This document shows positions 3,401 through 31,597 of a stretch of DNA of 34,602 nt, one piece after another. A program made the position numbers and the translations under genes. The notes under the pieces were generated by a model that was not told where the DNA came from, searched no databases, and worked only from the letters and a program-made list of their open reading frames with translations. Position 1 is the first letter of the stretch. Every line of letters begins with the position of its first letter. Source of the DNA: a virus. The stretch spans positions 1-34,602 of the IMG/VR virus record IMGVR_UViG_3300008221_000016, one strand, 5' to 3'.

Positions 3401-3672
3401 AGACTTACGTTAGTACCTGTATACGCATCAGAACCAGTTGCATTTTCCTTTAAACTAATGCTAGTAATTCTAAGATTTGTAACTGTTCCAGCAACTTGTT
3501 CGTTCTTAATTATAACTACAGCAGTAGACCTTTGGGTATTGTCATCATCACCTGCGTTGGTGTAGATGTAGGTATCAAAAACAGAATCAGACTCTGCTAA
3601 AGCAACTCCTGAAGAGTTATGTATATTGTAACGCTGAACTGAATTTCCGAATAATCTTGGATACTTTGCCAT
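406..3672 (-). CDS. Large tail appendage protein with HYDIN/choice-of-anchor-D-like N-terminus
   Basis: This 1088-residue protein is rich in Asn, Ser, Thr and Gly and looks beta-structured throughout. Residues of about 45-235 have the rhythm of the Ig-like HYDIN/ASPM-SPD-2 (choice-of-anchor D) family: a strand STAVVIIKNEQ, then TNLRITSISL, later FTVAFHPTE, and CYLKINTSVGNVVYPLVV. In that family the order is 'tftltNtG..pLtitsi....ftvtFtPt..g...a.l.I'. The last residues, NINLGNVNIG, look like the first strand of such a domain (family pattern 'fGnv.vG'), cut short by the stop. The middle 600 residues show no motif I recognise. The start lies one base after the stop of the 232-aa gene. Position and composition fit a tail fibre or other cell-contacting appendage. 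The family link rests on pattern reading, not on an alignment. Confidence 0.7.
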   Translation of the reverse strand: MAKYPRLFGNSVQRYNIHNSSGVALAESDSVFDTYIYTNAGDDDNTQRSTAVVIIKNEQVAGTVTNLRITSISLKENATGSDAYTGTNVSLNPMVSNVPFMGAQEGFSAQSGNKVVAKDTGNKPGLASDTTAGLEIGQIKVSATFTNNIPNTGGPISVEDINPELNSNFRSILLHNPETITAASGQNNPIPSDSYAAFTVAFHPTENIVNNHTECYLKINTSVGNVVYPLVVNSFNEIIMVARKGTSQYGDTNPDLNLTIGSSNIYDNGTVNLGYHPRTNNETKLQDDLLADGIKILDVSPAAVDASYRFVNSTASSGTFIDGDGATLNIPANHTAGVFDHFLNETNSSIKDYYTDEVYYNTLALSGTTSVDDGATLFDVPGNSSLCQFFTVINATTSIIDGTNGSGGYITNYALNDFARALLFRVNYLSEQYNNTNVANDDFLDDGTGFNNQFFKYVLTYGVYQKVTIPSNQISGIKNEIDASTEFTTSFNRKYDTSGISAPNGLIAQTGGTYNFSHSVRWNNYRGTDVNGKTSLEPFAFGPNSNNFKYLGTNTNDCVPTSFTIGSTTSTSGSFSYFKWDDPSIKYRDVTISSPIKFKLTPAVYFGSQFILALDSTEGDSFLMNPVADSGGTIESKLVPDAEDNVWNFNDSAVYPGLHSEHTIAYKARFYPRDPYLKIGMLTESSKFDKNSASPGYVNGTGLLKDSISTTELNDVSTWFNSSSAVISNTTSNFDTNQPANKMYSGFGGAVFEHNTFATNIQCLVGDATYNTTKKSRVDKNGASINEFFPFNKILKFPVPQKHASSDKFIAFQSFIPFNEGDSNIYLHSIDVLTGAEGVGNEQLLDFNAGSAGNNENGTAIYGYKPAHNTNNANAGSSNDPVLSFLVDGMDTVFNTSEKRYHRIVNPELTTSDPAKFYRGFNGGSAYYPPKFMQGYNNTDSDVTDYLFTVNETGIENQMDCNKISKWIGNSEQAYPEASNGTSGATGPKGNLPIHLRMEVAAKGSAVDFGSYYATLKIRYFKHDYFSEKKAGGEGTTVVTGASDFRIHEMRIIVKMDVELTPLLSIADSEGEEFTNSSNINLGNVNIG

Positions 3673-4933: not shown

Positions 4934-7900
4934 TTATCGTATAGATCTTTTCTTACTTTTCTTTCCATTCTCCTCTAGAATAAATCTAGATGAAGAAGGC
5001 ATTAGTTGAGCAAAGTTAGATACAAACCTTTTGTCTCCTTTATTTCCGTACTTACTTTTACGTTTGTATTCAGTCTGCATTACAAAATGATACATAGTTT
5101 GAGCTAAGTTATCTGCAGTGCTTAAAGCTGGAACATTAGCCATGTAAGTAAGTTTAGGAACGTTAAAGACTAATAACATATCACCAAGTAATTTCTCCAT
5201 TAACTTTAAAGTTTCATCCTCTGGAGCGTCCTCGTCTCTATTGTGAGAGATAGCTAATAAAATCATAGACAACATAGCAATACCTTGAGTACCTCTCCAT
5301 AATCTATTAACTCCTTTTTGAATATGATCAGGGGTTTCTTCGCTTTTAAATATAGCTCTCCATTCTGTTATAGGAATGTCATTAGCTTTCATTCTGTTAA
5401 TAAAGTCAGAAGCAGCTTTTACTGAACCTATCCTCATAGTACCTAAATCATCTATGTGTTCTGATTTAAATCTGTCAGCTAAGAACGTAGGGAACCATCT
5501 CTTAAATTGCATAAATGAATTACTAAGAGCGTATATCTGAATAAACCTTTGATCTGTTTCTGAGTAACCTCTACCTTGAAGATTAATTACATCTCTTTCT
5601 AGTTTTGCTATTTCAATTTTAGAAAGCCTAGAACCATATTTTGATATAGGATACTTATCAGTACCGTCTTCATTCTTAATATCACTCTTGTGCTTAAGCT
5701 CGCCTTCGTTAACCTCATAGCTATCCCATTGCTCTTGAGTTAAAGAACCTAAGAACGCTGCTTGTTGTATCCAGTTCTCTGCCATTACCATAGGAGAAAA
5801 TATTAAAGCATCTACAGCAGAACCACTAGTCCCTTCAGCAATCTCCTCAGCTCGGTAAGTTAATATACCAAACTCTTCAATCATTAGTCTAGACTTCTTC
5901 ATGATGTTTTTGTCAAACATACCATTAGAGTTTATACCTAAATATCTTTTCTCTCCAGTTATAACCTTAGAACCACCTTGAGCTCTGTAAGTGTTGTACT
6001 TACCTATTAATACGTTACCTATAGCTGCTGGAAAATTAAATCCTAAAGCTATATACATAGTCCAGTTAGTAAAGAACTTAATTATACTAGCTTCGTTTTT
6101 TGAATCACTAAAAGATAAACCTCTTTTCTTACTAATTAATCCTCCTTTAATAACTTTGTCCATATACTTTAAAGCATTTACACTACCACTCAACTCAAGC
6201 TGAGACATAGCAGCATCAACCATAAGGTTCTTGCTTTCAAATCCTTTAAATATATTCTTATTGATAGAGCCAGCTTCAATAGACATAGACTCAACTCCGA
6301 ACTCATCTTTATTGTCATCTATATTCCAAGACAATTTCTTAATCTTATTCTCTTTAACGTCTAAGTAAGCGTTACCATGCTGGAACATAAACGTTTGTAT
6401 ATAAGACCTAAGTGATTGATGAAGATTGTGCGTTGCTAAGTACCCAGCTTTTGATGATCTGTGAGATGTAAATCTATTTACAAACTCTTCATTACCTAAG
6501 ACATCGTTAACAGGGGAAGATACGCTTATTGCGTTATTGTCATCGTCCTTACCTTTAGTCATTAGCTTTTTAGCTTTGGCTGTAATATCTCTGAATGCTT
6601 TAATTCTTTGAGTTCCAGATAATTTATTACCGTGACTTAATTCAACTCTTAAGTTGTCTGAGTCTGTAGTAAATAAAGCGTCTTCAGGAGAATGCATATA
6701 TAAAGCTTTCCAACTAAAGTAGTCTAACTTTTCAAGGTCTCCAGTTAAAGGGTTTACTGCCTCAATAACTACATCGTAAAGAGTTTCATCTCCTCTATGC
6801 ATTTGATAGTACAGTCCAAACAAACCTCTTCTACTCATCGTCTCAAACTTAGATGAAGTAGATGCAGGGATGTAGCTAGTACCTCTATCAGCACCACCTT
6901 TAAGCAATCCTTTAGCGTGTATTAAATTTCTATAGAAAGAAGTATACTTAACATACATTTTTAAATACTCTTGCTCTGCTACTGATAAATCTTTAAACGC
7001 TTGTGAGTCTTTGTCAATAACACTTTCATCACCTACAATGCTAGAGCTTTTGAAAAATAAAGGATTAAGTCGTAGTGAACTAGCATCCTTGTAAGATATT
7101 TTATTTGTTTTTTTGTCTATGTTTCTTCTTGTTGCGTGCTCGCTTACAAATAAGTTTTCATATAGTATTTCAGAAACTTTTCTATTACCTACGGCAAAGT
7201 ACTGATTAAATATACGACCAGCTGAAGTTCCTAAGAACCCAGTTTCAGTTGCCTTACTTTTATATAAAGCATCTAACCTCTTATTCATTTCCTTGGTTAC
7301 AAGATGAAGGTTTCTAGTAAAGTCCATGTGCTCCATCTTCATTTCTTTATTAATGAAAGCCATGGTTGGTTTGTTTCTACCATAATCTCCTGGAGACATC
7401 CATAAGTCTAATGTAGATATATCTTTATTTAATCCTTTAAGCGTAATCTCTTCTACAAAACTTTTACCTTGATCTAATTCCCAATCTTTTATTTGCTTAT
7501 TAGATATATGCAAACCATAGTTGTATTCTACATACCTTCTAAGGGGTATTGTAGCTAAGCTATCTAAGTGTTCGTTAGTTAACCCTACAGTCTCGTAAGA
7601 CAATTCATTTTGAATGTTGTTAAATAAATTAGATACGTATTCAAATCTTTTGTTAGACTTAGACCTGTTCATTGAATAGTCGTGGTCTTCTATGTTGGCT
7701 TCGTTTAAATGATCTAGTTTCTCGTTAACTATGTCTAAAGACTTTAAATAATTAGCATAACTATCAGCCCACTTAGATTTAGTTTCATCGTCCAGAGAAT
7801 CTATCGATACTCCAGATGGAAGTTTCTCGTTAAAATACTCCTCTGAACTTAATGTAACTCTAAGTCCTTGAGTCATATCTATACCGTTTCCGTATATAGC

Positions 7901-10900
7901 TAAGTATTTAACTTCTCCTTCAGAGTACTCAGAGTGTTGATTAGACATCTTAGAAAGAACAGATAACATACCCACCTCTCTGAATTGTTCATCAAATATC
8001 ATAGGAATACCATCCATCATATCAGCACGAGACGTAAATGAATAAACACCTTCATGTTCTTGTTCAGTAACATTCATACCTTCAGCTCCGTGAAGAGCAG
8101 CGTAAGCTAATTTAGCTACATTAAAAGATGAATCATAAGGTCCCGCAATATCTTCAACACCCATAAGTTCGCTTATACTTAAAGTACCAGCACCATTAGA
8201 TGTAGCTTCGTTTGTTTGTTCTATAAAGTTTTTACCATTTACGAAGGCCGACTCAAAGTGATTATTTACTTTTGATATAGTAGAGCTACCCATGTAAGGT
8301 ACTAGTGATTGCTTCTCGTTAGAACCCCAACCAGAAACTATAAAGTCATTAGCTACAAACCAATCTTTAAGCCATGAAGGTAACTTATCAAAGTCTTTAC
8401 CTAAAGCTTCTACTTGCTCAACCTCTTGTAATTCAAACAACATTGCTCTATCTATCCCGAACTCAACAACAGATGAATCTTGTATATTATCAGTACCTCC
8501 AGTAAAGAACCTTGTAGATTTCCTCATATTTAAGTGCTGTATAAATAAGTTGTCATCAAAGTCTTCATTACTATCAATGTAGTTAGATATTAACTGAGTA
8601 ACGCCAGAATAAGCTTCTTCATTAGTTAAAGATGTCAATGACGAAAGAAAGTTTTTAGCTTCTGCATTATTTGATTTAACAATCACTCCAGCTATTGCTT
8701 TATGAAATAACATATCACGAATACTAATAGGCATGTGTGCAGCAACCCTAGTTAAGTTAAGGGCTTTAAGCAATTTAGCTGCGTCATAAAATTGAGCAGT
8801 ATCAGAATCATTATTATCTTCAGGAACCATAAACTCACCTACAGTATCACCATAACCATTAGATATTGTAACGTCTTCAGACTTTAGTTTTAATGCATAA
8901 TCTGATAAAAACAAAACCTTACTTAATATTAGTGGGTTCTTTGAAAATGCATTCTTAGCTATATCAGGTTGGTTAGCTAAAGCTTTCTTACCTTTATTTA
9001 TTCTATCATATACTTCTACTAAAGACTCTGGAAGATTGCTATCTAGACCAACATAAGAACCTAAGCTATACATGTCACTAGAGATTTTCTTTAACACAAC
9101 AGCTAAAGCTATTGCAGACTTTCTGTCTCCTTTTATAATAGATTCTATATCTATTCCTCTATTTACATAGTTGTTTTTTATATAGCCAGATAAGTTTTTC
9201 TTTACACCAAGTTGCTCTTTAGCGTATTCTTGTAACTTATCCATGCTAAGTAAGTCACCTAACTTACCTTTCGTCATTAATAATGCAATATCTTTTGGGT
9301 TGACACCCATCTTTATAAGTAAACCAAAAGAAGCACCACTACCTTTATTAAAACCAAACTTAGCTCTGTTACCGTACTTCCCATCATCTAAGATAAGGTT
9401 CAAGTAGTTAGCGTATTCGTAGTAAGTACCTCCTCCATTTTTAGATATTTTAGAGTCTAACTTGTCATATCGTTCAGCCTTCTCGTCTCTTCCTTTAACT
9501 AATACTAAAGGTAGTCCTCCATAATTAACAGAAGGACTTCCTTGAGCTAAATAGTTAAATTGATTAGAGGTGGAAGCTATAAGACCAATCATAGGAGCGT
9601 TACCCTTAGTTTGCTCGTACATCTCAGCAGTATCAAATACATTAAAGTCATTGTAGACTGCAGTAGAACCTTTTTCGTTACCGTATAAAGCTAAGTTAGT
9701 GGCTTTAGTTACTGTCTTAAATTCAAGCTCTTTAATTAATGTCTTAAACACCTCTGGGTGTTCGTGCATCTTTTTAAGCTTGCTAAGCATTTTATTCTTA
9801 ATCAAATCAAGAGATCCAGCTTCAGGGTTTTCAGTCCAAGCGTTAAGGTGAAGCATATCACCGTCTAAATCAGCTCCCATTATAGCAGACATTTTAGCGT
9901 TTATAGCTATAGTGTTACCTTGAGTGGATGATATTTTAGCAACCTTTAATAATATAGTAGAACCTACAGATGAAGCTGGTATTCTAGTAGCAAAGAAGAA
10001 AACTTCTTTACCTTTTTTAAGGTCATTCTCTGTAATGTTGAGCGTCTTAGCCATATGACTAGATATAGCAACCTCAGCAGGAAGTACTTTACCGTTCTCT
10101 ATTCTAATAGGTTTTAAAGATTTATCAGTCTCTATTACATTATCTCCATCAAACTCATAACCATATAAGGCATCTGATATTTGTAGAGATAAAGATCCTG
10201 TAGTTCTAAGTCTGTGAGCGTCTTTCTTAATTTTAGCTGTAGCAGTCTTACTTAAAGAGTCTGTAACGAATGGAAGAGAGGTTGCTAACTTATCCATAGC
10301 TCTAGTCATCGTAGGAAATGTAGATCCCGATTTAGCACTTTCTAAACCAGACTCTTCTATAGTCTTTCCTCCAGAACCTTCTTTGTATTGCTGATCTAAA
10401 GCTTCAGCATATAAAGATAAGAAGTCTTGAGACATTGCAGCAAGTTCAGCATTCTCATGGTCAGCAAATATATTAGTTGCGGATACAGCTTGTTTAGCTA
10501 CAGTCGCACTAGTAGCATTCTTATCTAATTCATTTTGAACACCGAAGTATTTACCATCATATCCATAGGTATCTTTATCTAAGTCGTAAGACCAGCTATC
10601 TTGAAACTCATTGATAGCAGCGTCATCGTCTTTCATAGCATTCCATTGAGCAAGACTCTGAGAGTTAACCCCCTTAATGTGACCTTTCTTAACACCAGAA
10701 TCAGCATAAGCTATAACCTTAGCTTTAATCCCTTTAGACTTAAATAACTTTTCTCTTGCTAGTAAGGCTTTGTATATTCCTTCTAGTGGAGTTCCTATAG
10801 AGGCTTCATCTAACACTACAGTATGACCTTTAAAGTAGAACTTACTTCGTTCAGATCCGAATGAAGATGATATAGCAGAGTTGTCTGTGTTCTGTCCTGC

Positions 10901-13900
10901 ACCAACAAACTTAAACGATCCCGTTACATCTACAGTATTCCCGTATGCGTTAGTTATCTCGTCAGCCATATCTTGCGTAACGTAAGAAGCTGAATCTAGT
11001 AAATCAGCTTTAACCTTTACAACTTTGTTGTCTATAGTTTTTATAGTAGAAAGACCATCTAGAGTTAGTAACTCTACATCGTTAAACATAATAACATCCA
11101 TTCTGTGTTCTGGAAATGCAGACACTTGAGGTGCTATCAGTAATGTAGCTCTCTTGTTCTTCATAGTAAATGAAACATCTTGAGATACTACACCCGTAAG
11201 GTCTTGTAGGTAATACTTGTTTACTGCATAGTTAAGACCAGCAACAACAACATTAGCCATATTAGACTCTAATCCTTTGTGCGTTCTTTCAGCTCCTTTC
11301 ATCATAGATTCAACAGTAAAAGAACCCTTAAGTACTTCATCTCCAGCTAAATCTAATTCTCCTTCACCCTCTCTTACAGCTCCTTCGTTGTCTGTAGTTT
11401 TTATCTTTTTTCCAGAGTCTCTAAGTTTCTTAATCATACTAGGAGACATAACTAAATGAAGATCGAAATTATCAACTTCATCATTGTGCTTATTGATTAG
11501 AGACTTCATCTCTGCAGCTTGCTTAGCTTTTATAGCCTTAAGCTCTTCATTAAGTTTTGGAGCGTAATCCTTGATATACTCCTCTAATGCTTCAACAGTA
11601 ACATCACTATGGTTAGTCTTTTCCAAGAACTCATTAAAAGAAATACTAGCACCAAAAGCATCTACATCGGAATAATACCTTCTTGTTTTATCAGAATGGT
11701 CTCCTATGTTTTGCTTGTATGAATCTGATTTAGATTCTAAAGCTGAAAGAATCATTCTAAGATCAGAATACATTACCTGAGCTCCTGTCATGTTCTTTGA
11801 ATCTATAGAGTTCTCTCCTTCAAATCCAGCAAGTATGTGATAATTAGGCCTCCAAGTACCATTAGACATTTTTTGAGCATATCGGTTAGTTTCATAAAGT
11901 TTTAAGAAACCAACAGGGTTATCTTTATTAAACTTCTCTAACGACTCTATATTATAATCAAGAGCTGACTTCTTTACGAGTACAGACACTTGATCGCCTT
12001 CAGGCATTCTAACTTGTCCAGCAGGGTTTTGTTGAGATGAAACTATGTAAGAAGTAACAACAGCCTTAAAGATGTCGTTAACACCTTGCATGTTATTCAT
12101 AGTACCAGATACACCTTCTATAGTCCTACCCCTGCTTTCTGTTGATGTTTTATAAACATCTAGAGAGCCTCTAGCTGGATCTTCTGAACCATGAGAAATC
12201 TTCCATCTTTTTATTAATTCTTTAACTACATTTTTATCAAGGTTTCCTGTAATCTTTTTCATAGGATTGATTACGTACTCTACAATAACATCTTGAGCTG
12301 CTTCATAGCCAAACTGAACTTGATTTTCCTTATCTCTACTAGTCCTTAAAGATAAAGAGTCGTAGAACATTTCACTAATACGTTCTTGATTAAAGTAAAC
12401 ATCAATGCTTAAACTTTGTCCAGATTCTTCATCAAAGATCATAAGAGATTCAATCTCATTTAAAGACACATCAACACCAGTACCTGTAGGTAGTATATGT
12501 CTTTTAATAAACCCAGCTACATCTTTTTTGGTTATATTAGTTTTTGACATTAACCCATATAGAGCTGCAGAGAATTCTATTCTTTTATTGAACGCCTCAA
12601 CTGCAGAGAACTGAGACACATCAGCGTTATCAAAATTATCTAATACATATTGCCTCTTATTAATTTGATTATTTATAGCAAACAAAGACAGAGGCTTACC
12701 TCCAGTGATTCCAATTAAATCATTCTTATCAAATTTAATAAAGTCTAGAGCATTCTTTTGATAGTTTCTATCAGAGTTAGATAATAAGTCTTTAGAGCCT
12801 CCAGTCACAAACACAAAAGGCTTGTCTATCTTAAATCCAGAAAGCTCATGATAAGCACTCTTAATAGATTCTCCTGGTACTATATCTTGTGTGTCTTTTA
12901 AGTATGAATAAAACTCCGAAGCTATAGATTCGTTGAATGTTAAGCTATCAGGGTTTCCTTCTAATAAAGCAATTCTAGCCTCTACTAGTGTTTGCATTTC
13001 TTCAGGGTTAGACACAGAATTTATGTCCATTATAATCTGCTTCAATACGTTATTCTTAGTAGCCCCTAACTCTCCATTTACAGCTCTACCTGAAGCAAGG
13101 AAGTTCTTTATAATACCCCCAAACTTATTAGATAGTCGTAAACTACCACCATCTATAACGGCAGCGAATGATCCGTCTTCAGATTCTACATCTACATCTT
13201 CGGTTGATTCCTCGCCCTTTAAATCTTTCTGTTCTTGGACATTTAAACCAGACAAGAACATAGTCTTTATAGTGCTCATTATTCCATTTTTGTTGGAATT
13301 TAATATCTTAAATGTTTTATCGTACTTCTCAGAGTTCTTTCCGTGAGCAGGATCTTTAGCTATCTGTAACAAAACAGCTCTAGCGAATGCAATAAATGCC
13401 TCTTGAGTTTCGTCTTGAAAAATTCTTCTTTCTTTTACGGCTTGGATAAGTTCTTTAGTATCCAATTCCTCAGAAGACTTCTTAGACTCTCCAAGTATTT
13501 TATCATGGAAATCTACCGCCATTTCGTAAGCTACGTTAAGTTTACTATCTAAAGTAACTCTTATACTATCGTTGATTGCCTTTCTTTCGGCAGTCATATA
13601 CTTAGACTGAGACGGAGAGTTTTTACTAAGCCCAGAATAATCAGCTGGATTATTTTCTATAATTTCTTTTACCTTAGAGAATTTCTCAAAGAAAGAGAAA
13701 TCATTAGTCTTCTTATAAAGACCTTCAGTAGCTTCTTCAAATAAAGCTTCAGACTCTTCTATTGTAGAGCTCTCTTTAATAAATCCTAACCACTTACCAA
13801 AAGTTTCCTTATGAGTGTCGGCTTTCTTCTTATCACTAAAGAATAGATCAGAATTCATAGCACCATACTTACCAGCTAACTGAGTAAGTGCTTCATCTTG

Positions 13901-16900
13901 AATTCCTGTTTGGTCTTTAGAGTCTAGGGCTTTGTACCCAATAGCTTCTAATTCTTTCATAGCATACGCTAAGAAATCTTTCATAGTCTGCTCAGACTCT
14001 ACAGTACCTCCTTTCTTTGCTGCGAAGTCTCTAATGTTTGTAATAACACCAGAGCTTAATCTAGACGCATGTTTTAACGCTAGGGTAAGGTTAATAGCAT
14101 CACCGCTAGATTGTACTAATAATAAGTAAGAGTACTTAAGTTTTATTTCATCATATATTGGCTGGTCTATGATGTTTTTCATCATCTCCATTACTTCAGG
14201 ACGGTGTCCATAAAGCATTCTAAATATGTGGAAGTTCTCGTGGAATACAGCTTCCTCGTTGTATAGTTCCGTGTTTAAAAATATACCTAAACCAGATGCC
14301 ATACCTGCAGCCCTAACTCCAGCGGCAGTAAATATCTCAGGCATAAATCCAATAGAGACAACCCCATCAACAAGCTTACGTCTATAGTAATCAGACAGTA
14401 CCATGTGAGAGTTTGAATCTAAAGCGTGAGCTCTTCTCAACTCTCTATCGTTAAGGTATTTTGTTGCTATATCAAATAAGTCAGAAGCAGTATCTCCTGC
14501 GATTCTTTTAGCAGCGTCACGAGCCAATCCAGCCATAACCTTAGCACTGTCAATCCTCATGAATAGCTTTGACTGACCATCAGGGTTCTTTAATTTATAA
14601 GCCCTAACATCACCAACAAGAATTCTTCCTCCAACTCCAGTACCAACAACCTTAGATAAGTCAACACCCTCCTCCTCAGCTACCTCAGTAGCTCTAGGGG
14701 TTGCGTTAACTTTAGGTTTCTCAGGAATAGGATCTTTGTCGTCAACCTTGTCGGTATCTTTATCATTAGCGTCTTTAGTATCTGCTTTATCACCAACAAC
14801 ATCAGCAGCAGGATCAACATCAACGTCCTGAATATCTTTATCTATATCATTTAAAGCATCTCCTAGGTCGTTGTTTATTATTTCGGTAGTCTTATCTGCC
14901 TTAAACTTAAACACCTTTCCAGACTCTCCTTTCTCTACAGCCTCTTCGTATATAAGAGTACCATCTTCAAGAGTTTCGCTATAAACAAATCCTTTTGGAG
15001 CTTTACTATTAGCCTCTAACCTTCTTAATCTAGAAGACTCTTTTTTAATATGGCCACTAAAGTCTTTATTGCTAGCAACATATTCATTCTCTTCTTTTGT
15101 TAGCTCTTCGTTGTTGTTTACCTTTTCAGCAAGCTTGTTAAGTTTTGGTCTGTCGGTTTTATTAAACTTTTCAGCAGCAATCCTTTTCTTACTAAACTCA
15201 TAGATACTGTTTACTGTATCCTTCATTACTTTAGCTGCAGCCTTTTTTGCTTTAGCTCCTTCATTGTATGACTCATTTAAAGCTTCGATCTGAGACTTTT
15301 TACTTTCATCACTTAAAATTTCATTAAGGTTTATCTTCTCAATCTCAGCGTTCTTAGCGTCCTCACCTATCTTAAGCGATCTGTCTACAGAAGTCTTCGC
15401 CCATACAGCAGTAACTAAATTAGCTTTCTCCATTCTATTAAGCGAACCATCAGGGTACTTTGACATTTGAGATTCAACCTCAGCTATAGTGCTAACATAA
15501 GAATCGTATCTGTCTTGAGTCATGTTACCATCTTCTAGCTCCATAGCTAAAGCCTCCATAACCAAATCTTTTTGTCCGTTGGTTACGGCTTGCATTGCTA
15601 ACTTTCTAGCAGCAGAATCTTGAAGTTCATTTTGCATGTCCTCACCAGATATTTCAATAATCTCATCTTCTGTAATAGCATTGTTATCTTTATCAAGACC
15701 TTTAAATACCGTCTTCTTTGCCTTGTAAATTCTTTCTTTATCTATCGGATCTGAAAACACCTCTATAAGATCAGATACATCTTGGTTTTCTTGATTAGTC
15801 TTGTTTTGTTTTCTCTTGTTCTCTGTAGCTGTTTGCATGAAGTTACTACCACCAGACATAAGTAAACTAGTAGCGAACGACATAACCCTTGTAGGTCTCT
15901 GTTCGTCAGCCATAAAGAATTCCATATAACTAGGGAAGTCTTCTCCTTTAGCTTCAGCTATATTCTTTTTCACAGACCAATCTTGATAAACCTCTTGGAA
16001 TTGTTCAACAACACCATCAGTTATACCATTGGCAGCACCCATACCTACAGCCTTAAAAGCTTGCTTAACTACAGGACCAATACCTGCAGCTTTCATAGCT
16101 TTTAAACCAGCACTCTTTGCTGCTCCAGGAACAGACTTCATAAGAGCAGAACCAATCTTTGCTTGACCTGTAAACAATCCATACTGAACAATATCAGCAC
16201 CCATTGAAGCTAAGTTATCTACAAAAACTCTACGACCAACTGCATGAGCTAATCTAGGGTCTACACCTTCTTCTATAGCTTGATTCATAGCTCCACCTGC
16301 TAGGGCAGCACCCTCAAGCATGTTTGCTGTAGAACCTGCAGCTATAGTAGAAATACCTTTTTTAATTAAACCTTGAGCACTTGATTGAGATAATCTAATA
16401 CCGACAGAAGACGCACCTTTAGCAATAGCTGCAGATGACTTAAGGAAGTTCATACTACCCATAGCAGCTTGAGCTCCTTTGGCAGCTAAAGTAGAGGGTA
16501 TCATTAACGATAAAGCAAACGGTAGCATACGAGCAACTCCAGTCTCCCAAAACTTAGGGTCAGACATATCGTCCCACGTAATCTCGCCCATATCCTTTAA
16601 TCCAGGAACAGTGTCACCATAAGAATCTAAGTAGTCACCAAAATTATGAAACGCGTCAGAAATAGGCTTAGTTGTATCTATACCAAGAACGTGTTTAGAT
16701 ACCATAGATGATGGAGTAAAACTTAAGAAGTCAACCATATCACCCATACTATTAAACATGTCTCCAAACCCAGCCATAACACTCCTACCTATAGTCTCGA
16801 CATGACCCATGTCATAATCTATACCTGGAGTACCAACTTCAGGTATGTCAGGAAGGTTCTGTTGTTGTTCAGCTAAATCTACAGCACCACCCCAATCATC

Positions 16901-17080
16901 CATCTTCTCCATTGGAGCTTGTTGTTGGTTGATGTTTGCTAAACTAAAAGAGCTCCTCTGTTGAGGAACCTCTAAGTTAGATTGTATATCTGGTTGACTT
17001 GCTGAATTATCTAAAGAAGAATCGTAGTTTTCAATATCTTCTCCTGGTGTATTTACTCCGTTACCTAAACCGTTTGACAT
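4934..17080 (-). CDS. Giant virion protein with DPBB RNA polymerase, zincin-like and E3-binding-like domains
   Basis: This is a 4048-residue protein, about 445 kDa by rule of thumb. Visible parts, in order: hydrophobic MLPFALSLMIPSTL (from residue 185) and Ala/Gly-rich amphipathic segments to about 370; a charged helical region of about 415-740; an Asp/Lys/Pro linker of about 742-792; a domain at 793-829 that closely follows the E3-binding domain pattern; HENFH at 947-951 with a candidate third zinc ligand E1063; ATRIPASS (2364-2371) followed by GADLDGDML with D2404, D2406 and D2408, the metal-binding signature of double-psi beta-barrel RNA polymerases; hydrophobic segments near 3665-3695 and 3925-3945. 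crAss-like phages such as phi14:2 carry a single-chain virion polymerase with this signature. The gene starts two bases after the 576-aa gene, inside the ejection block. I infer that it is packaged and ejected to transcribe early genes, perhaps after cleavage. Confidence 0.88.
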   Translation of the reverse strand: MSNGLGNGVNTPGEDIENYDSSLDNSASQPDIQSNLEVPQQRSSFSLANINQQQAPMEKMDDWGGAVDLAEQQQNLPDIPEVGTPGIDYDMGHVETIGRSVMAGFGDMFNSMGDMVDFLSFTPSSMVSKHVLGIDTTKPISDAFHNFGDYLDSYGDTVPGLKDMGEITWDDMSDPKFWETGVARMLPFALSLMIPSTLAAKGAQAAMGSMNFLKSSAAIAKGASSVGIRLSQSSAQGLIKKGISTIAAGSTANMLEGAALAGGAMNQAIEEGVDPRLAHAVGRRVFVDNLASMGADIVQYGLFTGQAKIGSALMKSVPGAAKSAGLKAMKAAGIGPVVKQAFKAVGMGAANGITDGVVEQFQEVYQDWSVKKNIAEAKGEDFPSYMEFFMADEQRPTRVMSFATSLLMSGGSNFMQTATENKRKQNKTNQENQDVSDLIEVFSDPIDKERIYKAKKTVFKGLDKDNNAITEDEIIEISGEDMQNELQDSAARKLAMQAVTNGQKDLVMEALAMELEDGNMTQDRYDSYVSTIAEVESQMSKYPDGSLNRMEKANLVTAVWAKTSVDRSLKIGEDAKNAEIEKINLNEILSDESKKSQIEALNESYNEGAKAKKAAAKVMKDTVNSIYEFSKKRIAAEKFNKTDRPKLNKLAEKVNNNEELTKEENEYVASNKDFSGHIKKESSRLRRLEANSKAPKGFVYSETLEDGTLIYEEAVEKGESGKVFKFKADKTTEIINNDLGDALNDIDKDIQDVDVDPAADVVGDKADTKDANDKDTDKVDDKDPIPEKPKVNATPRATEVAEEEGVDLSKVVGTGVGGRILVGDVRAYKLKNPDGQSKLFMRIDSAKVMAGLARDAAKRIAGDTASDLFDIATKYLNDRELRRAHALDSNSHMVLSDYYRRKLVDGVVSIGFMPEIFTAAGVRAAGMASGLGIFLNTELYNEEAVFHENFHIFRMLYGHRPEVMEMMKNIIDQPIYDEIKLKYSYLLLVQSSGDAINLTLALKHASRLSSGVITNIRDFAAKKGGTVESEQTMKDFLAYAMKELEAIGYKALDSKDQTGIQDEALTQLAGKYGAMNSDLFFSDKKKADTHKETFGKWLGFIKESSTIEESEALFEEATEGLYKKTNDFSFFEKFSKVKEIIENNPADYSGLSKNSPSQSKYMTAERKAINDSIRVTLDSKLNVAYEMAVDFHDKILGESKKSSEELDTKELIQAVKERRIFQDETQEAFIAFARAVLLQIAKDPAHGKNSEKYDKTFKILNSNKNGIMSTIKTMFLSGLNVQEQKDLKGEESTEDVDVESEDGSFAAVIDGGSLRLSNKFGGIIKNFLASGRAVNGELGATKNNVLKQIIMDINSVSNPEEMQTLVEARIALLEGNPDSLTFNESIASEFYSYLKDTQDIVPGESIKSAYHELSGFKIDKPFVFVTGGSKDLLSNSDRNYQKNALDFIKFDKNDLIGITGGKPLSLFAINNQINKRQYVLDNFDNADVSQFSAVEAFNKRIEFSAALYGLMSKTNITKKDVAGFIKRHILPTGTGVDVSLNEIESLMIFDEESGQSLSIDVYFNQERISEMFYDSLSLRTSRDKENQVQFGYEAAQDVIVEYVINPMKKITGNLDKNVVKELIKRWKISHGSEDPARGSLDVYKTSTESRGRTIEGVSGTMNNMQGVNDIFKAVVTSYIVSSQQNPAGQVRMPEGDQVSVLVKKSALDYNIESLEKFNKDNPVGFLKLYETNRYAQKMSNGTWRPNYHILAGFEGENSIDSKNMTGAQVMYSDLRMILSALESKSDSYKQNIGDHSDKTRRYYSDVDAFGASISFNEFLEKTNHSDVTVEALEEYIKDYAPKLNEELKAIKAKQAAEMKSLINKHNDEVDNFDLHLVMSPSMIKKLRDSGKKIKTTDNEGAVREGEGELDLAGDEVLKGSFTVESMMKGAERTHKGLESNMANVVVAGLNYAVNKYYLQDLTGVVSQDVSFTMKNKRATLLIAPQVSAFPEHRMDVIMFNDVELLTLDGLSTIKTIDNKVVKVKADLLDSASYVTQDMADEITNAYGNTVDVTGSFKFVGAGQNTDNSAISSSFGSERSKFYFKGHTVVLDEASIGTPLEGIYKALLAREKLFKSKGIKAKVIAYADSGVKKGHIKGVNSQSLAQWNAMKDDDAAINEFQDSWSYDLDKDTYGYDGKYFGVQNELDKNATSATVAKQAVSATNIFADHENAELAAMSQDFLSLYAEALDQQYKEGSGGKTIEESGLESAKSGSTFPTMTRAMDKLATSLPFVTDSLSKTATAKIKKDAHRLRTTGSLSLQISDALYGYEFDGDNVIETDKSLKPIRIENGKVLPAEVAISSHMAKTLNITENDLKKGKEVFFFATRIPASSVGSTILLKVAKISSTQGNTIAINAKMSAIMGADLDGDMLHLNAWTENPEAGSLDLIKNKMLSKLKKMHEHPEVFKTLIKELEFKTVTKATNLALYGNEKGSTAVYNDFNVFDTAEMYEQTKGNAPMIGLIASTSNQFNYLAQGSPSVNYGGLPLVLVKGRDEKAERYDKLDSKISKNGGGTYYEYANYLNLILDDGKYGNRAKFGFNKGSGASFGLLIKMGVNPKDIALLMTKGKLGDLLSMDKLQEYAKEQLGVKKNLSGYIKNNYVNRGIDIESIIKGDRKSAIALAVVLKKISSDMYSLGSYVGLDSNLPESLVEVYDRINKGKKALANQPDIAKNAFSKNPLILSKVLFLSDYALKLKSEDVTISNGYGDTVGEFMVPEDNNDSDTAQFYDAAKLLKALNLTRVAAHMPISIRDMLFHKAIAGVIVKSNNAEAKNFLSSLTSLTNEEAYSGVTQLISNYIDSNEDFDDNLFIQHLNMRKSTRFFTGGTDNIQDSSVVEFGIDRAMLFELQEVEQVEALGKDFDKLPSWLKDWFVANDFIVSGWGSNEKQSLVPYMGSSTISKVNNHFESAFVNGKNFIEQTNEATSNGAGTLSISELMGVEDIAGPYDSSFNVAKLAYAALHGAEGMNVTEQEHEGVYSFTSRADMMDGIPMIFDEQFREVGMLSVLSKMSNQHSEYSEGEVKYLAIYGNGIDMTQGLRVTLSSEEYFNEKLPSGVSIDSLDDETKSKWADSYANYLKSLDIVNEKLDHLNEANIEDHDYSMNRSKSNKRFEYVSNLFNNIQNELSYETVGLTNEHLDSLATIPLRRYVEYNYGLHISNKQIKDWELDQGKSFVEEITLKGLNKDISTLDLWMSPGDYGRNKPTMAFINKEMKMEHMDFTRNLHLVTKEMNKRLDALYKSKATETGFLGTSAGRIFNQYFAVGNRKVSEILYENLFVSEHATRRNIDKKTNKISYKDASSLRLNPLFFKSSSIVGDESVIDKDSQAFKDLSVAEQEYLKMYVKYTSFYRNLIHAKGLLKGGADRGTSYIPASTSSKFETMSRRGLFGLYYQMHRGDETLYDVVIEAVNPLTGDLEKLDYFSWKALYMHSPEDALFTTDSDNLRVELSHGNKLSGTQRIKAFRDITAKAKKLMTKGKDDDNNAISVSSPVNDVLGNEEFVNRFTSHRSSKAGYLATHNLHQSLRSYIQTFMFQHGNAYLDVKENKIKKLSWNIDDNKDEFGVESMSIEAGSINKNIFKGFESKNLMVDAAMSQLELSGSVNALKYMDKVIKGGLISKKRGLSFSDSKNEASIIKFFTNWTMYIALGFNFPAAIGNVLIGKYNTYRAQGGSKVITGEKRYLGINSNGMFDKNIMKKSRLMIEEFGILTYRAEEIAEGTSGSAVDALIFSPMVMAENWIQQAAFLGSLTQEQWDSYEVNEGELKHKSDIKNEDGTDKYPISKYGSRLSKIEIAKLERDVINLQGRGYSETDQRFIQIYALSNSFMQFKRWFPTFLADRFKSEHIDDLGTMRIGSVKAASDFINRMKANDIPITEWRAIFKSEETPDHIQKGVNRLWRGTQGIAMLSMILLAISHNRDEDAPEDETLKLMEKLLGDMLLVFNVPKLTYMANVPALSTADNLAQTMYHFVMQTEYKRKSKYGNKGDKRFVSNFAQLMPSSSRFILEENGKKSKKRSIR
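9857..9871 (-). other. DLDGD catalytic motif of the virion RNA polymerase
   Basis: These codons encode D2404-L-D-G-D2408 of the giant protein. The three Asp residues are the expected ligands of the catalytic magnesium in two-barrel RNA polymerases. The context, R2366 and P2368 upstream and GADLDGDMLHLNAW around the site, is closer to cellular RNA-dependent RNA polymerases of the QDE-1 type (GGDLDGD followed by aromatic residues) than to the bacterial beta-prime NADFDGD. A possible partner barrel lies upstream, near YFGVQNELDKN (from residue 2178). Confidence 0.85.
14228..14242 (-). other. HExxH zinc-metalloprotease-like motif in the giant protein
   Basis: These codons encode H947-E-N-F-H951 within EEAVFHENFHIFRMLYG, a hydrophobic helix of the zincin type. 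About 112 residues later, QDEALTQLAGKYG (E1063) looks like the third-ligand helix of gluzincins. Metalloprotease-like domains have been noted in large virion proteins of crAss-like phages. The enzyme could cut the giant chain or host proteins; the target is unknown. Confidence 0.6.
14594..14704 (-). other. Peripheral-subunit-binding (E3-binding)-like domain in the giant protein
   Basis: Residues 793-829 begin ATPRATEVAEEEGVDLSKV and continue VGTGVGGRILVGDVRAYK. The family pattern in dihydrolipoyl acyltransferases is 'A.P..R.lA.e.gvdl..v.GtG..GrI...DV..y', which matches at nearly every conserved place and at the usual length of about 35 residues. As in those enzymes, a flexible linker (about 742-792) precedes it. 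No lipoyl or acyltransferase domain is present. The closest alternative is the related small fold of the Lsr2 DNA-binding domain. Confidence 0.75.
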
Positions 17081-22235: not shown

Positions 22236-25200
22236 CTATATATTTGTAGTTCTATGGTGAACTAATGCTGAGAAAAGTTCAACCTCTTCAGTGGCACTAG
22301 ATTTAATTGTAACTATTAAATAGTTACCTTTCATTTTTGTAGTAGATGCTGGACTTCCAGTTAAATCTCTTATTGGTAGTATGTGCTTTCCAGCCCTCAT
22401 CTTACCTAAATTAGTTCCAGTATTTGATATTGTATTACCTAGCGAGTCTACAAATTCAAAGGTAGTGAATTTATGTGCGTTTCCATTTCCTGATAAATAC
22501 AATACCAATTTATCAAACACCTTAGATGTGTAAACGTTTTCGTTTATCACAAAGGTAACTTCCATTGCTGATGTATTAGCGTCTTCATAGAAAGCGTTTT
22601 GATTGACAGACTCACCATCGTGTTTAAAAACTTTAGAGTCATTTAAGTTTGATAAAACTTTGTAGCCTACTGAATAAGTTTCTCCTGCTAAGTTTACAGA
22701 CATACAAGAAGACTCATCTCTAGTTCCTACTATAATATCCATAAGCTCACTATAAACTATACTAGTTTTTGTAGAGCTATGGATACAGCAAACAACTTCG
22801 TCGTGTCTTTGATTCCAATGAAAAGATACACCATCACCTGTTAATGGACTATCTGCTATTGCCGTGTCTTTATAAACATCTAAAAGACTAGAGTTTTGAG
22901 TAGTCAAACCTAAATCTTGTACAACAACACCCTGACCAAAAACAAGCTTACATAAAGATGAATTAGCATCGTCATACCAATAAGCTGAAGTATTTGTAGA
23001 TATAGAGTTGTTAAAGTGTTGACTACCATACTTAGTATCTACATAATCAGCCCTCTCTATTACAGATCCAGTACCCGTAGCTATAGTTACTGCAGCAACA
23101 TCGTCATTAGAAACAACAACTCTAGGGTTTATAGATAACTTAGAAACACCTGTAGTTTGAATTGTAAACAATTCATTTCTTAGTTTTATTAAATTATATA
23201 TAGGACCATAAGAATTATCTAACTCATAAAACTCATTAGCATCGAATTTAGTATAAGCATCTGATGAAGAGCCGTTTATCTTTAAGTTTGATGCTGCTAC
23301 CATGTTTTCATACTTAGACACCTCTAAAAAGTTTGTAGGTTTTTCTAAAAACAGTTTAGAATTATTTACAGCAGAATAGCTATTATTGTACAAGTAATCA
23401 TCTTGAAATCCTGGTTGAATTTCTCCTTTACCAAAATAAACCCCAGACCTTAAATCTAAATTTATTGTAGACTCTATAGGGACTATAATAGCTTGATGAG
23501 GCATTTCAAAAGAGTCAGAAGATAAATAGCTCTTAAAAGGCGTATTCATCTTTTTTAAACTAAACATATTTACAAAAGTATCTCCACCAAAAACATCTAC
23601 TGTTGTTGTTGCTTGATTTACATTATTTACAAAACTACCTGTAGATATATATCTAGTATTCTTAAACGCTCCTACGCTATTACCACCATAAGCTGATCCT
23701 GATACATCTCTTATCATCTGAGCCATATGCTTTATAGATCGATGCTTACCAGATTTAAGCAATGCTCCTTTGTTATTAACTATTGAATTAGTGAAAACTA
23801 AAGTATTATTAGCAGCAAGATTTATAAATGTAGTATCATTAGCAGCAAAAGTAAAAGCTGCATCACTACCAGGTTCTGAGTTCCACCCGCTACTACCAGA
23901 AGGAAATACATATTCATAATTTGCATCTATATTAGTTCTTCCTCCATTTTTAAATATCAAACCAGAGGTTGTCTCGTTATTACTTATAGTACCAAAAGAG
24001 TTTACGTTTGTACCAAAATGTATTAACTTTTCTGAAGCAGCAAAACTTCCGTGATCAGCAACTTGAAATAATTTAGTAAACGCAGAATTGTACCATGATG
24101 AAAACACGTTATTAGTATTAGGGTCAAATCTTAATGCATAACCTTTGTTATGCGGAGATGCGTTAGATCTAAAAGTTATAGGGCTATAGTAACCATTTCC
24201 AGCTCCAGAATTTGTAGTGTCATTTTCCCAGGCTGCTACAATATAAGACCTAGCTAATTTATCACCACTAACGTTATTATATTGATCGCCATTAACTACA
24301 CACTCTGGTGAGTCTATTGTAAACATATCAGGATAAGCAATTCCATCTATGGGATGGAATACAGACACAGGATTAACTCCAAGCTTATTCCTCATGCTCC
24401 TATTCTCTACATTGTCAGAGTACCGAATAACGCTACTTAATAAACCGTTAAATAAAACCATTTTATCTTTCTCTTCTCTTTCTGCCCTAACTATAGAGTA
24501 TCCAGAAATATTAGACCTTAAGTCTGCTGAAAGATTAACCTCAAAACGAGGGTGCATTATATAGCCCCTATATTTACCAAGAACCTCGTCAGGCGAAGAT
24601 GTCACACACTTAGTAGGTACATAGTCAGTTAATCCGTGTGCCTGTATAGGGCTATAAACATCAGTTGCTTTAGGGAATCGAATATCACCTATAGGATAAG
24701 AAAATGTAGCTTGACCTGACAAGTCGTAAAACAATATAGCAAATCTATAAACCTCATTTCTCTGGTATCCTACGTGCTTATTGGCGAATACAGGGTTTTT
24801 GTAATTATCATAAAACCCATCATCTCCAGTCTTAGATTCTAACCCGTAAAAAGGAGGCTCAACAAGCAAATAAGGATTATTTGAACTTTCTTTTTCTACC
24901 CCCGCTTGATCATTTATACCTTTAGAGTCTAATGTAAATGCTTTCAATCTAAATGAAACCCTAACACCATTCTTAGTAGTGTCTGAAAAGTCTGCAGAAG
25001 ATGCCCCAAATTTATTAGCATTAGAATCAGAAAATTTATATTTATTATTTCCTTCAGTTCCTGCATAGTATAAATTAGCATCTCTTAAATCTGGGTTATT
25101 ATAATTTGTAGTTGTACTAAAAGCAGCCCCACTAGAGTTATAAGAAACAACCCTAAAGTCTGCGTCTATAGAATTAGATGCGTTGGTTAAATTAGACACA

Positions 25201-26549
25201 AACAACCTATTGTCTTTTGTTTTTAAATCCTTACCTGTAGTCCAAGATACTGAATTTGATAAAATCTGACTAATTGATATTGCTGTTTTAGTCTCACCTC
25301 CAGTGTGTTGACCATTAAATGTAGTTCCGTATAGCTTATCATCAATTATTATATGAGCATCAATAGCTCCTTCATTAGAAATAGTTCTTAGTGCTATTAC
25401 TTGTATGCTTTCATAAGTAGTGTCTGTTATTGCAATACTAAAAGAAACATACTTACCAGAAGGTTCTGATTCACCACCACCTTCTATATTGTGGTATGAA
25501 GCTGACTTTGATGTTTTATAAACAGATACTGGATTAGTAATAGGGGAAATTAAAGAGCTATTACCCCCTTTAGTCGTTAATCTATAGCAATACCTATATG
25601 AACCACAGTCTAGAACACCTCCAGAATTAACTCCAGTAATCACAGCAGGATTTAAAGGTGATGCTTTAAAGACATCTAAATCTGTTGATTGAAGACTTAT
25701 GTAATAAAACATAGACTCTTTAAGATTTATAGACCTTAAAGGTGAGTCTCCGTCTATCCAATATACTCTATGATAATGCTCATTTTCTTCTGATGATTCT
25801 ATCTTAACCAACCTTCCAGCTGTAAATCCAAAATTACCAACTATTTTTAAAATTGCACTAGAAAAATTTCCATTAACAGAAACTTGAGCTTTCCACACAT
25901 AACTATAACTTGAAGTAGTTGTAAATATACAGATATAATCACTAAAAGAAACAAGTCCTACAATATCATGAGATGCACTAGTTACACTTGGATTCCATGT
26001 ATAAACATTTTTTACAACTGGATTATAATTGTCATCACCAGAGTTATACGCTGCCGTAGTAGTAGTAGCAAAAAATTCTATAGTAATATCGGAAACAGAA
26101 TCAAATGATATAATAACCAATTTAAGTGTATCTCCATCAACAATAGGTTGAACATAAAAATTATTAGCCTCTGTAACTTGACTAAACAGCTGTAACATTG
26201 CTGAGTTTAATGCCCTTGTATTATTTATAGTTGTGGGAAGACTTGTAAAAGTGTATAGTGTAGTGCTACCATTTTTTATTTTTACAGTGTAACTAACACT
26301 GTCTACTGCTAATGGAGGTGCACAATAGCTATTTAAATTAGCTGTGGTAATTGTGTACTCAGATGAGTTTACTGATATATTAGTAGCAAGTTTATGTCCT
26401 GTTACATTTTTTAACGTAAAAGAATTATCAGATTTAGACATAGACCTTACGTTATGACCTTTTCTATACGAATCACTAAGTAGTAAGTTTGCATCTACAT
26501 CAGCCTGCATACCTTTAGTAAAGGTATTTGGTTTCTTTTGCTCAGCCAT
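22236..26549 (-). CDS. Tail nozzle/muzzle-like (tail stabilisation) protein
   Basis: This protein has 1437 residues, beta-rich and full of Asn, Ser, Thr, Tyr and Asp. The N-terminus NTFTKGMQADVDANLLLSDS, then YRKGHNVR and later LKNVTGHKLA, matches the opening of many podoviral nozzle or tail-stabilisation proteins ('F.kGmn.D.d....p.g.Y.dA.NvR.......l.N..Gn'), the group that includes T7 gp12 and P22 gp10. In crAss-like phages a protein of similar size, the muzzle, closes the tail below the ring proteins and precedes the cargo genes. That is exactly the order here: ring candidates upstream and ejection proteins downstream, with 2-nt and 1-nt gaps. No enzymatic motif is visible. The function is strongly suggested by the N-terminal motif, size and context together. 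Confidence 0.78.
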   Translation of the reverse strand: MAEQKKPNTFTKGMQADVDANLLLSDSYRKGHNVRSMSKSDNSFTLKNVTGHKLATNISVNSSEYTITTANLNSYCAPPLAVDSVSYTVKIKNGSTTLYTFTSLPTTINNTRALNSAMLQLFSQVTEANNFYVQPIVDGDTLKLVIISFDSVSDITIEFFATTTTAAYNSGDDNYNPVVKNVYTWNPSVTSASHDIVGLVSFSDYICIFTTTSSYSYVWKAQVSVNGNFSSAILKIVGNFGFTAGRLVKIESSEENEHYHRVYWIDGDSPLRSINLKESMFYYISLQSTDLDVFKASPLNPAVITGVNSGGVLDCGSYRYCYRLTTKGGNSSLISPITNPVSVYKTSKSASYHNIEGGGESEPSGKYVSFSIAITDTTYESIQVIALRTISNEGAIDAHIIIDDKLYGTTFNGQHTGGETKTAISISQILSNSVSWTTGKDLKTKDNRLFVSNLTNASNSIDADFRVVSYNSSGAAFSTTTNYNNPDLRDANLYYAGTEGNNKYKFSDSNANKFGASSADFSDTTKNGVRVSFRLKAFTLDSKGINDQAGVEKESSNNPYLLVEPPFYGLESKTGDDGFYDNYKNPVFANKHVGYQRNEVYRFAILFYDLSGQATFSYPIGDIRFPKATDVYSPIQAHGLTDYVPTKCVTSSPDEVLGKYRGYIMHPRFEVNLSADLRSNISGYSIVRAEREEKDKMVLFNGLLSSVIRYSDNVENRSMRNKLGVNPVSVFHPIDGIAYPDMFTIDSPECVVNGDQYNNVSGDKLARSYIVAAWENDTTNSGAGNGYYSPITFRSNASPHNKGYALRFDPNTNNVFSSWYNSAFTKLFQVADHGSFAASEKLIHFGTNVNSFGTISNNETTSGLIFKNGGRTNIDANYEYVFPSGSSGWNSEPGSDAAFTFAANDTTFINLAANNTLVFTNSIVNNKGALLKSGKHRSIKHMAQMIRDVSGSAYGGNSVGAFKNTRYISTGSFVNNVNQATTTVDVFGGDTFVNMFSLKKMNTPFKSYLSSDSFEMPHQAIIVPIESTINLDLRSGVYFGKGEIQPGFQDDYLYNNSYSAVNNSKLFLEKPTNFLEVSKYENMVAASNLKINGSSSDAYTKFDANEFYELDNSYGPIYNLIKLRNELFTIQTTGVSKLSINPRVVVSNDDVAAVTIATGTGSVIERADYVDTKYGSQHFNNSISTNTSAYWYDDANSSLCKLVFGQGVVVQDLGLTTQNSSLLDVYKDTAIADSPLTGDGVSFHWNQRHDEVVCCIHSSTKTSIVYSELMDIIVGTRDESSCMSVNLAGETYSVGYKVLSNLNDSKVFKHDGESVNQNAFYEDANTSAMEVTFVINENVYTSKVFDKLVLYLSGNGNAHKFTTFEFVDSLGNTISNTGTNLGKMRAGKHILPIRDLTGSPASTTKMKGNYLIVTIKSSATEEVELFSALVHHRTTNI

Positions 26550-30157: not shown

Positions 30158-31597
30158 TTATAGTACTAAACCAGTAGGCTTAAGAATACCACAAGATAAT
30201 GGATTACGAACAATAATACCTGATTGAGTTAACCAGTGACATTCGAATCTATCATCTCCCGAAGCAGCTAACATAGACGCAGAGTCATAAGGGTTAATCA
30301 TACCTGGTACATATTTTTTAATCCAGTTACGGTTAGTACCTTCAGCACCTTTAGCAATCAATTCGATGTTAGCAACACCTTGTTGAGTTGACATGTCTAA
30401 GAATACCATCATACCACCTAATGTTGTAGTTTTAAAACCACTACCATCAAGAGCAGTGTTGTTAGCTAGTTGTGCACTAGCAGCTAAATTAGGGTCATCA
30501 AATACTGGGCAGTGTACCAAAGTAATTTTGTTACCTAATGCTGTATAAGTACTAAATTGAGCACCTACATTTACATCTTGTCCAAATTTATCAACCATTA
30601 CAGTAGAAGCGTTTGTTCCAGAAGAGAATAATAAATCTTTCATTGCTCTATGGAACTGTACACGACCTTGTGTTCCTGTGAATACTACATATTCATTTCC
30701 AACAGGAGCAGCAGCATTAAGAGATAATTGACCGATATACTCAGTGATAATCTCTTCAGTTAAATTTGAACTAGCAGCGTAAGTCATTACGTTTGAATCT
30801 TCAATTTGAGCTAATAAACCATCACCAATAATTGGCATGTTTCCAGCTGCAGAAGCGTTAGAACCTACTGAAGTAGCTTCATAATCAGCAACAGAAGAAC
30901 GTCCAAACCAACGCATAACCTCAAGGTCATACATAAATTGAGCTTCAGTTTGTTGCTCTTTAGTAAAGAACCATAGACGGTGTCCATTGTGCTCCACCCA
31001 AGTAACGTCTGTTAAATCACGAGCATCAATAACTAATTTCTTACGAGAAGTTGTTAACCAGTTTTTGCGAGTTTCAGGGTAAGCATAACCTTCACCTACT
31101 TCAGCTCCTAAAGAACCTTCACCAAATGCGTTACCAATTACACCTACAACTGAATCTGCAGCTGCAGCAGCTGTAATTACGTTTAATGCTTTACCTGATA
31201 AAGTTTTTACATTAGTTCCATCTACAATAGACTCTACGTGTACTTGTAGACCTGAAGCTAAACGAACAATATCGCTTGTGTTAATTAAACAAGGCAATGC
31301 AGTAGTATCAGTCATTGAAAAACTAATAGAAACTCCAACAGCAGAATCAGTTGTTAACTCAGCGGCTAATTGTTGTTGACCTCTGTAACGGCCCATAGAC
31401 TTCCATTCGAAAGAATTGTCTCCTAATACTTTTTCACCAGCACCAAAGCTTAGTTTTTCAAGTAAGTAAGTTGTTGTGTATCGAGGATAAAGCTCGATTA
31501 TTTTTTTTGCAATCTCTGGGTACTTTAATAAGTTCGCTGTCAGAGAATTGTCTGCTGTGTTGTACGCAGCATCATATTTAGCGTTGTATACTCTCAT
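30158..31597 (-). CDS. Major capsid protein candidate
   Basis: This protein has 479 residues. No single motif proves it, but size, position and composition fit a HK97-fold capsid protein of a crAss-like or similar podovirus: it follows an acidic scaffold candidate and precedes a decoration protein. The N-terminal 50 residues are helical (SLTANLLKYPEIAKKIIELY), then an Ala/Gly/Val-rich mixed domain, RKNWLTTSRKKLVIDARD, and a C-terminus GIIVRNPLSCGILKPTGL. Its codon use differs from that of the neighbours I checked: 10 of 16 Arg codons are CGT, against none of 10 in the 213-aa connector gene, which mostly uses AGA or AGG. This suggests very high expression. The start is preceded by an A-rich run (CAGAAAAA). 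Confidence 0.82.
   Translation of the reverse strand: MRVYNAKYDAAYNTADNSLTANLLKYPEIAKKIIELYPRYTTTYLLEKLSFGAGEKVLGDNSFEWKSMGRYRGQQQLAAELTTDSAVGVSISFSMTDTTALPCLINTSDIVRLASGLQVHVESIVDGTNVKTLSGKALNVITAAAAADSVVGVIGNAFGEGSLGAEVGEGYAYPETRKNWLTTSRKKLVIDARDLTDVTWVEHNGHRLWFFTKEQQTEAQFMYDLEVMRWFGRSSVADYEATSVGSNASAAGNMPIIGDGLLAQIEDSNVMTYAASSNLTEEIITEYIGQLSLNAAAPVGNEYVVFTGTQGRVQFHRAMKDLLFSSGTNASTVMVDKFGQDVNVGAQFSTYTALGNKITLVHCPVFDDPNLAASAQLANNTALDGSGFKTTTLGGMMVFLDMSTQQGVANIELIAKGAEGTNRNWIKKYVPGMINPYDSASMLAASGDDRFECHWLTQSGIIVRNPLSCGILKPTGLVL

Follow-up and report, generated by a model that had tools for sequence, protein, structure and literature searches.

The locus and its neighbours

The window, by which we mean the whole stretch of DNA analysed, is a 34,602-base IMG/VR fragment whose main genes, all of them minus-strand, make up a crAss-like structural block (Table 1). 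With portal, major capsid, ring and muzzle proteins predicted from this block, the phage is assigned to the order Crassvirales; neither TerL nor a primase was identified within the fragment. Most proteins of the window are 76-88% identical to their counterparts on the closest related contig (L002) but those encoded at 18825-20969 and 406-3672 are only 55% and 67% identical, respectively, a fast divergence as expected of host-contact proteins; the N-terminal part of the 18825-20969 product is baseplate-hub-like. Three upstream proteins, of 576, 714 and 420 aa, were considered as homologues of Cellulophaga phage phi14:2 g068-g070, but as they fit in order and size alone, and are without sequence support, this assignment was rejected. 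Relatives of the 4048-residue chain described below were sought in bacterial and archaeal genome contigs and none were found there, and so no host is assigned.

Table 1. Positions of the 4048-codon gene, its modules and motifs, and neighbouring virion genes in the window
Feature	Position	Strand	Basis or remark
Whole gene: N module, E3-binding domain, zincin-1 site, polymerase, associated module	4934..17080	minus	4048 codons
N module, residues 92-696, homologous to phi14:2 gp67 / crAss001 gp47	14993..16807	minus	profile-profile E 2e-13
Weakly hydrophobic stretch ARMLPFALSLMIP..., residues 181-200	16481..16540	minus	L011 and L012 exceed hydropathy 1.5 here; window does not
E3-binding (PSBD) domain, residues 790-829, after Asp/Lys-rich linker	14594..14713	minus	Pfam PF02817; fold match
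Zincin-1 site HENFH, residues 947-951	14228..14242	minus	1455 residues before core motif start (2402)
Modelled two-barrel polymerase core, residues 1890-2690	9011..11413	minus	AlphaFold pLDDT 81, pTM 0.79
Polymerase module, residues 1976-2971, homologous to phi14:2 gp66	8168..11155	minus	profile-profile E 1.5e-20
Catalytic DxDxD motif DLDGD, residues 2404-2408	9857..9871	minus	alignment with known members
Associated module, residues 3631-4028, homologous to phi14:2 gp65 / crAss001 gp49	4997..6190	minus	profile-profile E 2.3e-17
Muzzle / stabilization-type virion protein	22236..26549	minus	PHROG 28748 E 1.5e-70; matches phi14:2 g071
crAss tail ring protein 1	26552-27133	minus	Pfam CrAss_Ring_1 E 7e-33
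crAss tail ring protein 2	27541-28182	minus	Pfam CrAss_Ring_2 E 2e-15
Major capsid protein	30158..31597	minus	PHROG 11589 E 1.4e-30
Portal protein	32700..34541	minus	PHROG 6547 E 6e-100; tblastn to 138 mainly crAss-like records

A single frame, present on independent contigs

The preliminary description of the locus reported one uninterrupted frame of 4048 residues, and this is what is present, with an ATG start and on the minus strand, a strand not given previously. The DLDGD and HENFH motifs also begin where they had been placed, at residues 2404 and 947, respectively. The hydrophobic ends ascribed to the protein are, however, a weak point, as no 19-residue stretch of the window protein has a mean Kyte-Doolittle value of 1.5 or more; values above 1.5 do occur in some relatives within the same clade, near residues 181-209 and near the C-terminus.

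The same chain is encoded on ten further contigs, L002, L008 to L013, L038, L044 and L046. On the closest, L002 (65,964 bases), the frame is intact, with 4062 codons, and the product is 87-88% identical to that of the window. Seven of the other nine, aligned over the chain, are 33-39% identical. In some of the nine the chain is cut by contig ends, and both chain ends are present in L002, L008, L011, L012, L013 and L046. Compared with L002, the window gene has an overall dN/dS of 0.17, and individual 300-codon blocks, junctions included, range from 0.05 to 0.32. As judged from these codon comparisons, the chain is a single frame under purifying selection. Since ten other contigs carry the same chain, the frame being shared by independent contigs of which these six hold both chain ends, and with dN/dS at 0.17 and below 0.33 in every block, the idea that assembly joined separate genes, raised in the preliminary description and conceivable for a metagenomic fragment, is rejected as exceedingly improbable.

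Third-position identity between the window and L002 is ~0.80-0.90 over most of residues 1-2600 and falls to 0.62-0.76 after residue ~2600, with protein identity remaining high beyond this position despite the drop. A recombination step inside the gene, between the polymerase core and the associated module, is possible.

Three virion modules in one chain

The preliminary description placed an RNA polymerase core in the middle of a much longer chain, and noted that in phi14:2 the virion polymerase is a separate protein of about 2200 residues. Both statements hold; phi14:2 g066 is a separate gene of 2180 aa, and the homologous module is internal to the chain (Table 1). A direct tblastn search with the chain against 50,697 phage records gave no match at E 0.01, and intermediates are therefore needed to link the window to known polymerases. 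Compared on its own with a profile built from separate crAss-like polymerases, the window protein reaches 32 bits (E 1e-10, in a small protein set), and a window-clade profile matches the polymerase profile over the whole of the module, with a reversed control run alongside. Within the alignment, GADLDGD of the window coincides with GSDFDID or GSDFDVD of known members, and upstream R, P, S and G residues are also shared. A clade-only profile found no match among PDB sequences, 6VR4 (phi14:2 virion polymerase) included, so the link to polymerases rests on the profile-profile comparison and on the structural model. A 6VR4 match at 4e-191 obtained with a wide alignment is due to the distant rows of that alignment and is given no weight here for the window.

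Residues 1890-2690 were modelled with AlphaFold from 68 sequences, and among solved structures the model is closest to 6VR4 (E 7e-17, TM 0.60), followed by QDE-1 and the P23-45/P74 polymerases; among predicted viral structures, the named matches are mostly crAss-like proteins. Structure prediction and fold search thus bear out the two-barrel polymerase call, which is made here from a whole-fold match of the model. Model and profile evidence are not fully independent, since distant relatives were part of the alignment used for modelling. Together they identify the module as a predicted Crassvirales virion-type RNA polymerase of the phi14:2 gp66 family. Two papers (PMC7886860, PMC10136315) document activity and an early-gene role for the phi14:2 enzyme.

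The polymerase module is flanked by two further homologies. Residues 92-696 match phi14:2 g067, residues 1976-2971 match g066 and residues 3631-4028 match g065, and the three matches are colinear, in the phi14:2 order. They score 142-215 in the true direction, the N module having the lowest score of 142, versus 40 or less for the reversed window profile, and unrelated neighbouring proteins, included as a control, score 38 or less. The C-terminal match is also obtained with the two closest sequences alone (E 4e-6). By these profile comparisons, the C-terminal end, overlooked in the preliminary description, is a homologue of the RNAP-associated proteins gp65 and gp49, and the chain therefore equals three neighbouring virion genes of phi14:2; it is a three-part fusion and not a polymerase with unknown extensions. 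A search of seven contigs of the clade for a separate associated gene elsewhere found none, but the power of this search is low, as it also misses the copy within most of these chains.

The E3-binding domain

An E3-binding-like domain had been reported at residues 793-829, and both sequence and fold bear this out. Pfam PF02817 matches residues 791-826 (E 2.3e-9; 37.8 bits versus a cut-off of 23.7), and residues 790-829 correspond to solved PSBDs, the modelled fold superimposing on the best of these with an rmsd of 0.7-1.9 Å. Seven of 32 zincin-region sequences have the domain; within the sequences scanned it is confined to the window clade, where it is missing from L011, L013 and L046. Pfam finds the E3-binding domain only, with no lipoyl or acyltransferase (E2) domain in the window protein. 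The simplest reading is that it would serve as a spacer or hinge bead beside the Asp/Lys-rich linker. PSBDs bind E1 or E3 and, given the good sequence and fold match, the injected chain might instead dock by this domain onto the 2-oxoacid dehydrogenase complex of the host, but there is very little chance of this, as the domain is missing from the three clade members just named, and the first of the two arginines that contact E3 in the Bacillus PSBD appears to be replaced in the window domain.

HExxH sites at the module junctions

The preliminary description also recognized a protease-like part around HENFH. The motif is invariant throughout the window clade and its position, at the junction of the N and polymerase modules, is that of a site, here designated zincin-1, in other crAss-like chains. 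In polymerase chains outside the window clade, 31 HExxH motifs lie 1250-1750 residues before the core motif and 13 lie 750-1000 residues after it, with a handful between the two clusters. In phages with split modules, zincin-1 is encoded late in the N gene in some (crAss001 gp47, L035, L114 and L121) and early in the polymerase gene in others (L017, L030, L031, L053, L067, L075, L120 and L126), and for cr110_1 the adjacent gene is entered in the record as 'RNAP associated protein fused to zincin protease'. The comparison thus shows a conserved HExxH site at the first junction.

The match of the window site to other zincins is local, around the motif only (E 2e-4). As to a third metal ligand, relatives have EE..AE following the HExxH and the window clade has IQDEAL or IQDESL, and the alignment does not place these together. 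The zincin region has no match among the curated protease families in Pfam, and a model of the region (pLDDT 67) gave no convincing protease match among solved structures; a literature search of open-access papers found no paper on crAss zincins. Of the protease-like part, the motif and its conserved position therefore stand, a family or fold assignment does not, and protease activity of the window zincin is putative but likely.

In relatives, a second HExxH site is positioned at the junction of the polymerase and associated modules, and this site, zincin-2, is absent from the window clade. Many associated proteins have a second HExxH, frequently HEFGH, close to their start, as in the associated genes of L025, L029, L062 and L064; phi14:2 (L003) has HEIMH at residue 245 of g065 and is without the first site. 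HEQTH at residue 3021 of L002 is absent from the window and from L008, and is treated as a chance occurrence.

Joined and split chains across crAss-like phages

Among deduplicated loci with a polymerase core, both junctions are split in 32, only the first is joined in 28, both are joined in 18 and only the second in 3, the remaining loci being cut by contig ends; the first junction was scored as joined from the length ahead of the core, so that the N-terminal extensions counted here are in part putative N modules. Joined chains have up to 5701 residues. Named records with two modules joined are cr1_1 (4551 aa), FpV4 (4287 aa) and cr110_1 (4417 aa) and, from its size and order, cr7_1 (5443 aa) is likely also joined. 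On a tree of 94 polymerase cores (IQ-TREE, quick search, with some long branches), the state of the first junction changed at least 15 times and that of the second at least 9 times which, with the 18 fully joined loci, indicates that joining is recurrent and stable. The window clade (10 rows, support of 100) is set apart in this tree from those named records that were included, and is borne by a branch with a length of 2.39 changes per column.

The exceptional length and fusion emphasized in the preliminary description are real insofar as there is one long chain, but giant fused crAss-like polymerases were already deposited and those of up to ~6000 residues already described, and several large multidomain proteins of the transcription block are described in PMC7886860. 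The fusion itself is of a known kind; what is new is the deep clade, the identity of the three-module chain and the repeated joining, with zincin sites at both junctions.

Two other arrangements were encountered in the survey. In L033 (Bohxovirus, PV686213), L036 (Dulem virus 42) and L078, the large virion and polymerase genes are present as many short ORFs when read, and so annotated, in the standard code, consistent with a reassigned stop codon. In L077 and L108, the polymerase module extends over two ORFs, split shortly before the DxDxD core by a gap of ~480 bases, possibly an intron or intein-like insertion, or a two-subunit form.

One packaged chain or a polyprotein

The gene is probably (at roughly 0.6) that of a two-barrel RNA polymerase packaged in the virion of a deep-branching crAss-like phage and made as one chain with its two usual cargo partners. 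We infer that the chain would be packaged in the head as a single cargo molecule holding all three modules, would pass through the tail partly unfolded and would refold in the host, where the polymerase module, needing no release by cutting, could transcribe early genes. The two partners would then be tethered cargo domains, with joining mainly fixing copy number and delivery order. Of the crAss001 proteins, gp47, gp49 and gp50 are carried in the virion as cargo, which has to unfold partially because of tail constrictions of <50 Å (PMC10172136).

The junction HExxH sites argue against an uncut chain, as they are where processing enzymes would sit. Alternatively, the chain may be a polyprotein from which zincin-1 of the chain itself, or some other protease, releases two or three proteins similar to those of phi14:2 by cleavage at the junctions, during either assembly or ejection. 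This is unlikely but deserves weight; throughout the group, HExxH motifs are concentrated where modules meet, at both junctions, and in relatives with split genes the zincin may be on either side of the gene boundary. Such relatives also demonstrate that the modules can function as chains of their own. The distribution of the sites does not, however, follow joining. Zincin-1 is present in 30 of 52 joined versus 12 of 32 split forms and zincin-2 in 10 of 26 joined versus 32 of 66 split forms, counts that incorporate two hand corrections (zincin-1 of crAss001 as present, gp47 being on the other strand, and zincin-2 of L002 as absent). Independent-pair tests on the tree revealed no association of either zincin with joining, with little power from 10 and 7 pairs. 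A fully joined lineage (L023, L051, L052 and L058) has no HExxH at all, and the window clade has no zincin-2 although its second junction is joined. Across the forms surveyed, the protease is thus not kept wherever the chain is joined, and of the two possibilities left by the preliminary description, a polyprotein or one huge ejected machine, a self-cut polyprotein is not favoured, although another protease could cut. That zincin presence does not follow joining, and that one fully joined lineage has no HExxH, agrees with chains for which cutting by these sites is dispensable. A more specific proposal, that the crAss-like early-transcription machine is generally a polyprotein cut by junction metallopeptidases, with the window clade keeping one protease and adding the E3-binding domain as a docking or spacer bead, is more doubtful still. 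It is very improbable that the chain is mainly a ruler of the tail or channel with the polymerase as a passenger, as in P23-45 gp96, in which a two-barrel polymerase is joined to a 5002-residue tape measure (PMC10770324), since the structural genes of the window form a block of the crAss-like podovirus type, ring and muzzle proteins among them, both flanking modules have their matches in crAss cargo proteins and not in tape measures, and the window protein has no clear transmembrane stretch.

The window clade is a deep, undescribed branch among crAss-like polymerases, for which the phage records searched gave no match, and one virion machine is encoded by one, two or three genes across the survey. 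Phages with joined and with split forms are a natural set for studying whether ejected cargo proteins need to be cut, by what means a chain of some 450 kDa gets through a narrow tail and which role the zincins at the junctions have.

Comparison with known systems

In gp96 of Thermus phage P23-45, the tape measure also has a metallopeptidase and transmembrane domains (PMC10770324). As in the window, a two-barrel virion polymerase is located inside a giant virion protein with a metallopeptidase, present in the window as the motif only, but in gp96 the polymerase is N-terminal, its partner is a tail tape measure and the match to the window is only a distant one, in fold. In cr1_1 gp76 (4551 aa), Flavobacterium phage FpV4 (4287 aa) and cr110_1 gp40 (4417 aa as annotated), the polymerase is joined to one neighbour, which in FpV4 is the N module, so that two modules are joined and not three. 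Chains with the polymerase, the associated module and an N-terminal extension, of 4642-5701 aa, are encoded by the uncultured L018, L020, L023, L051, L052, L058, L087, L088, L097 and L098; these are far from the window clade on the tree, and some have both zincins and some none. Bacteroides phage crAss001 has the same three families as gp47, gp50 and gp49, with HEAFH near the end of gp47, but encoded by three genes on two strands. Cellulophaga phage phi14:2 also has three separate genes (g067, 1797 aa; g066, 2180 aa; g065, 1421 aa), all annotated from virion MS/MS, is without the zincin-1 motif and has no direct tblastn match to the window, but with g066 between g067 and g065, its gp67, gp66 (PDB 6VR4) and gp65 represent the same three families, in the same order and with the same polymerase fold as in the window chain.
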